Positions 16,350 through 27,455 of a DNA stretch of 64,000 nucleotides are shown one piece after another. Every line of letters begins with the position of its first letter. Position 1 is the stretch's first letter. A model generated the notes under the pieces. It had not been told where the DNA came from, ran no database searches, and saw nothing but the letters and a program-made list of their open reading frames with translations. Source of the DNA: Candidatus Nitrotoga sp. 1052 (lineage in GTDB: Bacteria > Pseudomonadota > Gammaproteobacteria > Burkholderiales > Gallionellaceae); contig NZ_CAKMHQ010000014.1 of assembly GCF_927312905.1 (NCBI RefSeq), positions 62,001 to 126,000 on the forward strand. Direction: 5' to 3'. The position numbers were made by a program, and so were the translations under genes.

Positions 16350-16523
16350 AAATTCCTTGCCACACTTTGCGTGTTTAAACTTATCGTATGTACTCAGCCC
16401 AGAATGAAGGGTGATAAATAATCACTATTTTTCCCCTCATTTGCGAGAAAGAGAATGCTCCATCTAACGTGCATGGCAATGATGCCGCCCCCGATGATAA
16501 AACTCCCCATGCCCGCTTCCCTC

Positions 16524-16546
16524 ACCCTCTCCCGGTGGGAGAGGGT
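16524..16546. repeat. REP-like palindrome
   Basis: ACCCTCTCCC, loop GGT, GGGAGAGGGT: a perfect 10-bp stem with a 3-base loop, preceded by CCCTC. It belongs to the same CCCTCTCCC/GGGAGAGGG family as the three copies inside the restriction-modification gene at 25.2-26.1 kb. Here it stands alone in the leader between the flgK promoter and flgK. Confidence 0.75.
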
Positions 16547-16606
16547 GCAGATGAATCGCTGCGCGAGTTTCACGTTAACCTGAATAGTTGCAGGACGTTT
16601 TACAAA

Positions 16607-24128: not shown

Positions 24129-27100
24129 TTAAACTGTGGGGGATTTAAGCAGAGAGCTCGCTCGCGCCAGATTCATTACCAGCAAGCGGCGCAGGATTTC
24201 TTCGTCGGGCATTTCCGATGCATAGTCGTTCCAGCCGTAAGCTTTTGCGACGGCCGCATCCAATACTTTGTGCGCATTATCCAGCCATGCGGGGCGGGCA
24301 TTATAGAGGTTGGTGAGGGTGCGTTTTTTCAGGTCGGCCTCGTGACCGAGTTTGGCAACGGGGCGCATTGGGTAGCCTGCTTTTTCTTCCTCGGGTGTAC
24401 GCACCCAGTCCGTCCACTCTGGCGGGTTAAGCCAGGTCTCGCGCAGTTTGTCCAACTCTTGCGCGGATGTGGCAATCTCGGCGGATGAGGGGTTGGTGTA
24501 ATCGGCTGGTTTGAGGTTGGGTGTCAGTCCTTCGGGAAAGGGGAATGTCTCGAAACACGATTTGGCGTTATAGGTTGGGTCGTTACCCACTCCGTGCATA
24601 GACGCATTCGCTAATGCCCAGATTTCGTGCATGCGCGAGGAAAGCACGCCGAAGGTCACGTCATCCTCGCGCGCGATAGCGTAGAGGCGACTATCCGGCA
24701 GCACGCTAACATCCAGCCACGTGAACATCCTATGCTTGGCGACGCGTGGAGTAGCGATGTAGCGTTTGAGCGGGGCGAATGCGGCGCGTAAGGCTGGCAC
24801 AGTCTCACCGTGCCTCCACCAATATTTTTTACGACCTTCACGATTACCGGCATCACGCATCGGCTTCACCTCGCGCAATACGAGAGCGAATGGCATCTCG
24901 AAGAGAGCGGCTTCTTGCTCTGTGCGGTTTGTTCCAAAGTCGATAATCCAATTATCAGAGGGTCGGCCTGTCACATCCTGCCCGTTCGCCCACGGTCGCA
25001 CCACATCGCTGTTCGGCTTACTGTTTGGATTGGGTTGTTTGAGCCATTGCCGCGCAAGTTCACCGGGAATGTCGAATGAACCGACTTTGACCGGACCTTG
25101 AAAGGCCACGCCCGTATTCTCATTCAGCGGCTTAGCCTGCGTGAGATTCAGCCCTTCACCTGCGGTCAGGTCGGCGTGGATGTTCTCAACGGCCTTGCCA
25201 TCCAGCACAGCGCCCTCACCCTCCGCCCTCTCCCGAAGGGAGAGGGAACCAAAGCACACCAGCGACACGCGCACCGCAGCACCTTCGTTAATCCATTCTT
25301 CATCGCTCCAGGCATTGAAGATGCGGGTGGTATCACAGATTCGCGCCAGCACTTTTTGGTTTGAGCCTTTGCGCACAGATTGTGTGGCAACCAATCCGGC
25401 AAGCTGACAATTGCCCGCTTCAATTTGTGCACGCGATTTCTCAAACCAATATGTAACCAAATCGGCACCGCCCGGCACGCGGTCTGCGTAAATCTTTCTC
25501 AGTGCTTCAGTATATTCATCGCCCAACTCGCTACGCATCTTCTTGTCGCCCAAAAATGGCGGGTTGCCGATGATGACATTCACGGCAGGCCATTGGGCTT
25601 CGTCAAACAAATTGCTTCTTACTCTATTCCCCTCGCCCTCTGGGAGAGGGGCTAGGGGTGAGGGTGATGCAGCTAGTTCATTCCAAAGATCTTGCAAAAC
25701 CGATTCTGTTTCTTGCAACACTTGGTTGTTCCAATAGCGAATGACACGAATGCCCTGCTCTGCTATAAATTTTGTTCTGGCTTCGTCATATTCAATATTG
25801 TCCGCATGCTGACCGCCATCAAGTTCAACAGCGAGTTTTGCCTCATGACAATAGAAGTCAATCACATAAGGCGGCACTGGATGTTGACGACGAAATTTTT
25901 TACCTGCAAATCGCCGGTCTCTAAGCAACATCCAAAGCAAATTTTCTGCGTCAGTCTGGTTTTTTCTTAACTCTCTGGCGAATGCTCTTAATTCGGGCGG
26001 AATATTTGTATTACTACAAACAGCACCCTCACCCTTAACTCCTCTCCCAGAGGGCGAGGGGCAAGAAAGCAACGCATCGCGATTTTCAATATGGTCGAGC
26101 GGTTGGAGGATGGGGTTCTTGCGAATGGGATAGCCGTGTTTGAGCATCCACTGGATTTCACCAATCCACACGGTGACGCGTGCGAGTTCGGCGGCATAGG
26201 GATTGATTTCAATGCCCAGCACATTGGCGGGCGAACATTCGATGGTGATTTGACGTTGTAATCCCAAGGCTTCTGCTTCCAGATTTGCCCGGTGTTCGAG
26301 GTCTTTCAGTGTGCGCAAAGCAAGGTAAAGAAAGTTTCCGCTCCCGCACGCTGGATCCAGCACGCGAAAGGCTTTGAGCCGTTCGAGATAGGTAATGAAC
26401 ACGGCTTGCGCGTCGCGTTCGGCCTTGTCGCCACTCTTCTTGCGCTTGGCGATGTGTGCAGCAATCGCGGCCCGCGCGACTTCCCATTCCGCTGCCAGCG
26501 GTTCGATGATGACGGGGTTGATGATGCGCAAAATGGATTTCTGGTCGGTGTAGTGCGCACCAAGCTGGGAGCGTTTCTTGGGATCCAGGCCGCGCTCAAA
26601 TAGCGTTCCGAATATGGAGGGTTCAATGCCACTCCAATCGAGTTTGGCGGCTTCGTGAAGGATTTTTATTTCGACGGTATCGATAGGCAGGACTTCAACC
26701 TTCTCGAACAATCCGCCATTAAACCAGTGAATATCCTCTAACGCAAAGTCGCCCCCCTTGCGCATCGCGTTAAATAACTCTTCCAAGCGCGTGGAAAGTT
26801 TGACGGGGTCGGTCTGGCTTTTATCCAGCAAGCGCTCGAACAGCTTGCCGGGAAGTAGTTCGGCATCTTCGGCGAACAAACAAAACAGGCATTGATTGAG
26901 AAAATGCGCCACGGTCTGTGGCGCGTGGCCTCTGGCGTTCAACGATTGCGCGAGGGCGGCGAACTTGCCCGCCGCTTCTTCGGTGATTTCAGAAATGGTG
27001 CGTTGCGGGTGGAACTTGTCCGGGGCGGTAAACAGCCAGCGCAGTTTGTCGAGATTGGCGGGTTCGCTGATTTCTTCCAGCGCGATGGTATGAACTTCGG

Positions 27101-27455
27101 AAGGCGCGTTGGTAAAGTGAGTGTGGATTTCGATGATATTGGTATCGCAAACCACCAAGAGCGGCGGATTGTCCAACGCCAGCGCGTAGGTCATCAACTG
27201 TTTCAGGGCTTCGCCCAAGTTGCGCCGCATCGCTTTATATTCAAACGCGAAATGGCCTTGCTTCCACACATCCGCCCAGCCTTGCCCGGCTCCGGTGCGG
27301 GTTGCCCCGCGCTCGAAGCAATAGGTATCGTGACTGGATGGTGAAGGGTGAGGAACGCCAACTAGCGCGCACAGGTCAATAAAGTGAAGTTGGTAGCTGG
27401 CGCGCTCTTTGAGAGGATTGTCTTTCCACTTCTGGATGAACTGTTGAGGAGTCAT
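24129..27455 (-). CDS. MmeI-like single-chain restriction-modification enzyme carrying a DUF559 insertion
   Basis: A 1108-residue protein. N-terminal nuclease part (about 1-150) with a PD-(D/E)xK pattern: D62, then E72-x-K74 in FAFEYK. A helical spacer follows, then an N6-adenine-type methyltransferase with motif I LDPACGSGNF (366-375) and motif IV IIGNPPF (628-634), and a target-recognition and C-terminal region after about 770. This is the Type IIL (MmeI family) layout, in which one chain both methylates and cuts DNA. Between ENRDALL (458-463) and EAQWP (619), where relatives should run almost straight to motif IV, there is a roughly 150-residue insert containing a complete DUF559 nuclease-like domain. 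A second, short in-frame palindrome insert lies at about 737-750. The frame is open throughout. Whether the enzyme still works is unknown. Confidence 0.88.
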   Translation of the reverse strand: MTPQQFIQKWKDNPLKERASYQLHFIDLCALVGVPHPSPSSHDTYCFERGATRTGAGQGWADVWKQGHFAFEYKAMRRNLGEALKQLMTYALALDNPPLLVVCDTNIIEIHTHFTNAPSEVHTIALEEISEPANLDKLRWLFTAPDKFHPQRTISEITEEAAGKFAALAQSLNARGHAPQTVAHFLNQCLFCLFAEDAELLPGKLFERLLDKSQTDPVKLSTRLEELFNAMRKGGDFALEDIHWFNGGLFEKVEVLPIDTVEIKILHEAAKLDWSGIEPSIFGTLFERGLDPKKRSQLGAHYTDQKSILRIINPVIIEPLAAEWEVARAAIAAHIAKRKKSGDKAERDAQAVFITYLERLKAFRVLDPACGSGNFLYLALRTLKDLEHRANLEAEALGLQRQITIECSPANVLGIEINPYAAELARVTVWIGEIQWMLKHGYPIRKNPILQPLDHIENRDALLSCPSPSGRGVKGEGAVCSNTNIPPELRAFARELRKNQTDAENLLWMLLRDRRFAGKKFRRQHPVPPYVIDFYCHEAKLAVELDGGQHADNIEYDEARTKFIAEQGIRVIRYWNNQVLQETESVLQDLWNELAASPSPLAPLPEGEGNRVRSNLFDEAQWPAVNVIIGNPPFLGDKKMRSELGDEYTEALRKIYADRVPGGADLVTYWFEKSRAQIEAGNCQLAGLVATQSVRKGSNQKVLARICDTTRIFNAWSDEEWINEGAAVRVSLVCFGSLSLRERAEGEGAVLDGKAVENIHADLTAGEGLNLTQAKPLNENTGVAFQGPVKVGSFDIPGELARQWLKQPNPNSKPNSDVVRPWANGQDVTGRPSDNWIIDFGTNRTEQEAALFEMPFALVLREVKPMRDAGNREGRKKYWWRHGETVPALRAAFAPLKRYIATPRVAKHRMFTWLDVSVLPDSRLYAIAREDDVTFGVLSSRMHEIWALANASMHGVGNDPTYNAKSCFETFPFPEGLTPNLKPADYTNPSSAEIATSAQELDKLRETWLNPPEWTDWVRTPEEEKAGYPMRPVAKLGHEADLKKRTLTNLYNARPAWLDNAHKVLDAAVAKAYGWNDYASEMPDEEILRRLLVMNLARASSLLKSPTV
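25213..25247. repeat. REP-like palindrome inside the restriction gene
   Basis: Reads CCCTCACCCTCCG and then the stem CCCTCTCCC-GAA-GGGAGAGGG (25226-25246). It is translated in frame as SLSLRERAEGEGAVL in the restriction protein. It belongs to the same family as the inverted repeats around the DUF559 segment and the free copy at 16524-16546. Confidence 0.8.
25630..26060 (-). mobile_element. DUF559 endonuclease-like module bounded by 35-bp inverted repeats, inserted in frame
   Basis: The two ends, 25630-25664 and 26026-26060, are inverted copies of one 35-bp sequence with 32 identical positions (CCCTCACCC at the inner side, AGAGGGCGAGGG at the outer side). Between them is a minus-strand reading frame for a DUF559 domain (host protein residues about 485-595): FARELRKNQTDAENLLW, RRQHPVPPYVIDFYC and the active-site-like LAVELDGGQH. 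D533, E544 and D546 are likely metal ligands in this Vsr-like fold. DUF559 proteins are usually free-standing, about 120 residues long. Here the domain has no start or stop of its own and is read as part of the host enzyme. Confidence 0.75.

Follow-up and report, generated by a model that had tools for sequence, protein, structure and literature searches.

DUF559 is a very common protein domain of unknown function. In 2022 it was placed in the family of EDxHD homing endonucleases and was found there inside inteins (PMC9403480). Two kinds of short palindromic repeats are close to the locus described here. REPINs are inverted pairs of REP sequences that are moved in trans by RAYTs (PMC3116915), and REPs inside genes are already known (PMC3733652). 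The coding palindromes of Rickettsia (RPE) and Wolbachia (WPE) are inserted in frame and do not inactivate their hosts, which are housekeeping genes like priA (PMC4224334).

The present locus is in a window of 64,000 nucleotides from Candidatus Nitrotoga sp. 1052, i.e. the whole stretch of DNA that was analysed. We consider it probable that a widespread selfish element, homing-like, compatible with the reading frame and made of a single gene, has one of its copies at 25629-26061, with DUF559 standing between inverted palindromes.

The cassette and its host gene

The features are listed in Table 1. The host frame is open over all its 1108 codons and the DUF559 insert is read through in frame. 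Pfam finds MmeI_N, MmeI_hel, MmeI_Mtase, DUF559, Eco57I and MmeI_TRD in the product, which matches the MmeI structure PDB 5hr4 with an E value of 2.7e-42. The DUF559 match (residues 489-594, E 9.9e-38) reaches 128.8 bits, the curated cut-off of PF04480 being 20.6. The frame, the Pfam domains and the motif positions all agree with the original prediction that the domain is read without a stop inside an MmeI-like host, between methyltransferase motifs I and IV. Homologues of the host without the insert are 78-91% identical to it.

Table 1. Features of the DUF559 cassette, its host gene and related palindromes (window coordinates).
Feature	Position	Strand	Remarks
Host ORF, MmeI-like type IIL restriction-modification enzyme	24129..27455	(-)	1108 aa including the insert; ORF list, Pfam
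Whole cassette, palindromic arm - DUF559 - palindromic arm	25629..26061	(-)	In frame; 20 of the 22 compared host loops lack it
5' arm (host reading direction)	26021..26061	(-)	41 nt, 90% complementary; encodes PSPSGRGVKGEG linker
3' arm	25629..25669	(-)	41 nt, 90% complementary; encodes PSPLAPLPEGEG linker
DUF559 (PF04480) nuclease domain	25674..25991	(-)	Invariant E, D, E-x-D, H; Pfam, AlphaFold, Foldseek
Host methyltransferase motif I (DPACGSGNF)	26331..26357	(-)	Sequence
Host methyltransferase motif IV (NPPF), past the insert	25554..25565	(-)	Sequence, comparison with 5hr4
Second palindrome, single, in frame in the MmeI-like host, SLSLRERAEGEG	25213..25247	(.)	In homologues, too, this loop is a hot spot of palindromes
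Intergenic palindrome, same family as the cassette arms	16520..16546	(.)	

The inverted arms had been described as 35-bp ends; they are confirmed as inverted but are slightly longer (41 nt at 90%). They are 351 nt apart and, by inspection, start with CCCC or CCTC and end with GGGTGAGGG. Their score, calculated for the 300-nt flanks of DUF559, is 31, as compared to a best value of 14.5 in 1000 Markov resamplings of those flanks. The palindrome core is present in 4 copies in the window (16525, 25226, 25630 and 26040), where 0.01 would be expected by chance. It is shared by the copies at 25213-25247 and 16524-16546 (the latter delimited here as 16520-16546), which had rightly been assigned to the palindrome family of the cassette ends. 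Strict copies of the repeat are few in the window's genome (G000, 3.23 Mb), i.e. 7 only, 3 of them within the MmeI-like host gene.

The intergenic palindrome is part of a longer repeated unit (window 16480-16580; GTGAAACTCGCGCAGC...CCCTCTCCC...GGGCATGGCGAGTTTTA) that is found at several intergenic sites of the same genome and is possibly a MITE. The genome also has a second, free DUF559 gene (L002, G000:C41, approximately 1376-1821), located within a type I restriction operon. This gene stands directly after two palindrome copies of another family (AAATCCCCCCTAGCCCCCC...), which form a pair on one side of it; the pair, AAATCCCCCC..CCCCCTTTTTCAAAG, is unlike that of the window.

The insert is only about 145 residues long and nearly all of its non-linker part is DUF559. 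Its size bears on the suggestion that the cassette is an intein or an intron with a DUF559 homing nuclease, a suggestion that draws on the report of DUF559 as an EDxHD homing endonuclease within inteins (PMC9403480). Against this, none of the hosts scanned with Pfam has a Hint or intein domain, the insert has no Rfam intron match and the frame is open throughout, which makes a spliced element extremely improbable.

The insertion loop in homologues

More than 20 host homologues (78-94% identity) were found among 150 genomes of the window's family, and the insertion loop, between NRDALL and EAQWP, was compared in 22 of them. The loop is empty in 8 (e.g. DAVLNTDGSEAQWP), carries short palindromes in 12, mostly clearly in frame, and holds DUF559 in 2, namely in the window and in L122 of the single-contig genome G092 of the same genus. 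The palindromes belong to several unrelated families and occur singly or as inverted pairs, with no DUF559 between them. Note that most palindrome loops were told from the empty ones by a hairpin test, the exception being L124, which was scored from its paired long arms, and that the palindrome-bearing homologue L130 is frameshifted. The loop of the second palindrome (25213-25247) is likewise a hot spot among the homologues. The empty, palindrome-only and DUF559 states thus show a recurrently colonised, tolerant loop and not a one-off fusion. DUF559 at this site in all homologues, without repeats, had been named as an outcome that would speak against the original prediction, and this is not what the homologues show.

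In two of the homologues, L126 and L132, pairs of CGTC-type REPs (CGTCATACCCGCGCAGGCGGGTATCC) are in frame at the loop that holds DUF559 in the window. REPs of this class are said to lack a dedicated transposase.

Many of the genomes used come from draft or metagenome assemblies, which would be the ground for suspecting an assembly artefact or a chimeric contig. The same insert is nevertheless found at the same site in the single-contig genome G092, and dozens of other, independent genomes show this architecture, so this explanation retains next to no probability.

Inverted arms at DUF559 loci

Eighty DUF559 loci were taken from a genome collection (Proteobacteria, Armatimonadota, Bacteroidota, Chloroflexi, Nitrospirota, Myxococcota and others). 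Inverted flanks with a score of at least 16 were found at 70% of these loci versus 1.0% of 2501 control placements, which had equal geometry and were taken from the same loci at a distance of 1 kb or more. The repeats hence mark the borders of DUF559 elsewhere as well; had they proved unrelated to these borders, this would have counted against the prediction. When the flanks were restricted to 150 nt, arms were seen at 48 of the 80 DUF559 genes versus 7 of 374 neighbouring ORFs, and one of these 7 is itself a second DUF559. When further copies were added, both from these genomes and from the window's family, arms passed in 112 of 156 entries (L151 duplicates L021). Within the window's family, 25 of 29 DUF559 genes have arms versus none of 30 ParE toxin genes used as control (L341-L370). 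Chance palindromes are ruled out by the control placements, the ParE control, the resampling and the core counts in the window.

Each element has arms of its own. DUF559 paralogues within one genome are only approximately 40-60% identical, each with its own arm sequence. The similarity of arms is 0.79 for the pair in an element, 0.47 for different elements of a genome and 0.40 over the whole set. The identity of the DUF559 proteins correlates with the similarity of the arms (rho 0.31, the maximum in 500 free permutations being 0.16), with no excess over within-genome shuffling of the arms, which reaches an equal or higher correlation in 71 of 500 cases. For this reason a specific pairing of nuclease and palindrome is suggested only, on the basis of sequence comparison.

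Target duplication had been proposed as a check, and no direct repeats of 3-9 bp were found above permuted pairing in 101 elements. Pfam detected no known transposase domain either, and a classical transposon was therefore rejected. At L167 (G022:C174:78783 and 79348) two equal-scoring DUF559 genes stand in tandem between similar palindromes, possibly a recent duplication of the cassette. A plasmid search for relatives gave only matches below 60% identity.

An alternative is that REP-like palindromes are spread by other machinery, such as RAYT/Y1 transposases or repair copying, and that DUF559 is cargo caught between two inverted copies. This would fit with the palindromes of several families that occupy the same loops without DUF559, with the Y1_Tnp genes present in the window's own genome (G000), and with the movement in trans of inverted REP pairs in REPINs (PMC3116915). 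However, the enrichment is specific, as ParE, which is likewise small and mobile, gives 0/30 and other ORFs give 7/374; the two arms of an element match each other and not the arms of neighbours; the nuclease is under purifying selection (see below); and 6 of 20 genomes with DUF559 elements are without Y1_Tnp. The last observation rules out RAYT as a required mover, and we regard the cargo explanation as a whole as unlikely.

Two other small gene families were inspected in the window's family. PF13366 (PDDEXK_3, GxxExxY-type nuclease) has inverted ends of short-period repeats in 30 of 30 cases (L371-L400), the repeats being CACAGAG, CACGAAA or CGCAGATT, and also TTAGCCACAGAGAACACAGAGGTCACAGAGA, GTCCACGAAAGACACGAAAGGCACGAAAA and CCGCAGATTACGCAGATT, all unlike the DUF559 palindromes. 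PF05635 (23S-rRNA-IVS four-helix-bundle) has such ends in 20 of 29 cases (L311-L340), with TTAGTCG, GTAGC or GGATTC, and also AGCTGGTAGC and GGATTCAGG, as repeats. There may thus be several elements of this kind besides or including DUF559, each a small gene whose inverted ends are its own.

In-frame insertions into unrelated host proteins

According to Pfam, DUF559 lies within long frames of a DUF1156 methyltransferase, RecG, an Eco57I-type enzyme, TrpC and PriA, in another MmeI between the TRD and the C domain, and at the N-terminus of CbiC. In the window's family the hosts are an MmeI paralogue site, HrpA (at two sites), methionyl-tRNA synthetase (MetRS) and HsdM, and all 20 in-frame copies that were fetched have arms. 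MmeI enzymes are entered in frame at three sites overall. In MetH the domain is in frame and arms were not detected. The proposed search for repeat-flanked DUF559 inside other ORFs was thus productive, as the host proteins with in-frame copies include nine or more that are unrelated to one another.

The hosts are complete on both sides of the insert in RecG (between residues 415 and 418 of PDB 9wm0) and in TrpC (between residues 150 and 155 of PDB 6y88), and the interrupted TrpC is the only copy in its genome. The trpC of the window's own genome (L404, G000:C31:39805-40563) has an open frame of 385 aa versus 273 aa in G092 of the same genus.

The MetRS linker was compared in 74 genomes. A DUF559 cassette was found in 8 and palindromes of several types in at least 19, while the others look empty, keeping in mind that the split between empty and palindrome linkers was made by text patterns and that at least one linker scored as empty is repeat-derived. 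The catalytic domain of MetRS is single-copy in all 8 genomes with the cassette; since this is their only MetRS, the interrupted enzyme must work. The cassette palindromes encode linkers of the PSPxGRGxxGEG and PSPLxPLPxGEG types. Besides DUF559, MetRS (linkers of L241-L310) and HrpA have many in-frame palindromes of several families in the window's family, and further in-frame palindrome residues follow ALCDRL in L238.

The list of hosts is also relevant to the idea that a restriction enzyme recruited DUF559 as a nuclease or repair domain, for example for Vsr-like repair near the methylated site. DUF559 is Vsr-like, in Caulobacter it has a functional link with a methyltransferase (PMC12907096), and several of the hosts are DNA enzymes. 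TrpC, CbiC and MetRS, however, share no DNA theme, close homologues of the window enzyme are without DUF559, and the palindromic borders are left unexplained. As the hosts are diverse and the homologues empty, we reject such a function of the fusion as very improbable.

Fold, selection and phylogeny of the nuclease

In the AlphaFold model of the window DUF559 the core is confident, most of the domain having pLDDT values above 94, whereas the ends encoded by the palindromes are disordered. Foldseek placed the gonococcal DUF559 structure 3hrl first, followed by the catalytic domain of I-Bth0305I (PDB 3r3p; E 1.9e-4, TM 0.78 on the target), with Vsr as a weaker match. Residues E42, D71, E82, D84 and H88 are invariant in 40 DUF559 sequences and are candidates for the catalytic E-D-x-H-D constellation. 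The model thus assigns the Vsr/EDxHD catalytic fold to the window domain.

Purifying selection on the inserted nuclease is strong; dN/dS of inserted DUF559 domains was 0.05-0.10 in all calculable pairs. In the DUF559 tree, which has few columns and many unresolved forks, nearly all in-frame copies fall into one 31-row clade that spans several phyla, and the PriA, MetH and CbiC copies are outside it. The window copy is nearest to the RecG insertion of another betaproteobacterium and near to a methyltransferase insertion of Armatimonadota, being 64-65% identical to both. Copies from the same site cluster: those of MetRS form one clade, and those of the HrpA site need two changes on the tree, with the copy from the second HrpA site nested within.

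The MetRS host tree is noisy, has long branches and is poorly resolved. The 8 rows with the insert are scattered over it and require 8 changes, and for most pairs the divergence of insert and host is similar. Because of this noise and similarity, spread between copies of the same site and repeated loss are indistinguishable at MetRS. Between the window and G092 the insert has a dS of 0.14 versus a host mean of 0.35 (p 0.0009). The segments of the host are a mosaic with dS values of 0.14-1.2, and we do not claim a homing tract from the low dS of the insert, as the host segments themselves cover this range.

A model for the spread of the cassette

The homing-like element would most likely work as follows. 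The predicted nuclease would nick or cut DNA, perhaps at loops that bear palindromes or are prone to form hairpins. Repair of the break would then copy the palindrome-nuclease-palindrome cassette into the cut site, and those insertions that preserve the frame would survive, as the host protein could go on working. What presumably lets the cassette persist in frame is the translation of its palindromes into short and flexible linkers free of stop codons, together with independent folding of the nuclease. Activity of the nuclease, movement of the cassette by this nuclease and a role of the palindromes as its substrate are inferred here.

Several parts of the picture were established directly, i.e. 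the anatomy of the cassette, the association of the palindromes with DUF559, the in-frame insertion into multiple hosts, the selection, the fold and the lack of target duplications. Empty and filled alleles of one site both occur, in the loop of the MmeI-like host as well as in the MetRS linker, and no insertion or excision event was observed directly in the genomes compared. The distribution of the cassette points to its mobility, and the original picture of a small selfish unit of nuclease and palindromic ends is supported. Repeats and nuclease are separable, however, since the loops in question are also entered by palindromes that have no DUF559. For the same reason the palindromes may move independently of DUF559.

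A broader proposal, which could equally hold or fail, is that DUF559, PDDEXK_3/GxxExxY and 23S-IVS genes with inverted repeats of their own form an unrecognised class of minimal mobile elements that have neither a transposase nor an intron or intein. The DUF559 branch would be specialised for insertions that preserve the frame of working and even essential proteins, and would be the autonomous partner of some coding palindromes. If these proposals are true, DUF559 is in many cases a genetic parasite, and a nuclease partner exists for at least some of the orphan palindromic repeats scattered over bacterial genomes. Selfish DNA would then colonise essential proteins without splicing, by encoding its own flexible linkers, and would be a natural source of domain insertions. 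The long-standing question of how palindromic repeats spread would become directly testable with one purified nuclease.

Comparison with known systems

REP/REPIN sequences and their RAYTs resemble the cassette in that short C/G-rich palindromes form inverted pairs around one small nuclease gene, the repeats are element-specific and occur as solo and paired copies, and there is no clear target duplication. The RAYT, however, is an HUH tyrosine transposase, whereas the enzyme here is a DUF559 nuclease of the Vsr/EDxHD type; no Y1 (PF01797) transposase lies between the repeats, and inspection of the cassette arms revealed neither of the terminal tetranucleotides GTAG and CGTC. REPINs are essentially confined to extragenic DNA (PMC3116915, PMC3733652), whereas the palindromes described here are at both ends of the insert and in frame inside ORFs. 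In other words, the cassette has the inverted palindrome pair of a REPIN and lacks its extragenic location.

With the EDxHD homing endonuclease I-Bth0305I the cassette shares the catalytic fold and a selfish, patchy distribution. Enzymes of that type belong to phage group I introns and have DNA-binding extensions (PMC3943268), whereas the cassette has palindromic ends, is not associated with an intron or intein and lacks an additional domain for DNA binding. It is in none of the settings of the EDxHD type, i.e. in an intron (no Rfam match), in an intein (no Hint domain) or free-standing beside the target. VsrA of Caulobacter has the same Pfam domain; it is a presumed very-short-patch repair nuclease for which repeats or mobility were not reported (PMC12907096).

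The RPE and WPE palindromes are similar in being in frame and in preserving the host ORF. They carry no enzyme, whereas the cassette holds a complete nuclease domain under selection between two palindromes. We found no paper linking DUF559 with inverted repeats in the open-access literature searched. As known coding palindromes, genic REPs and REPIN/RAYT systems do not pair in-frame palindromes with DUF559, we take the combination to be new: the cassette joins coding palindromes with a homing-type nuclease, in an arrangement that is apparently undescribed.
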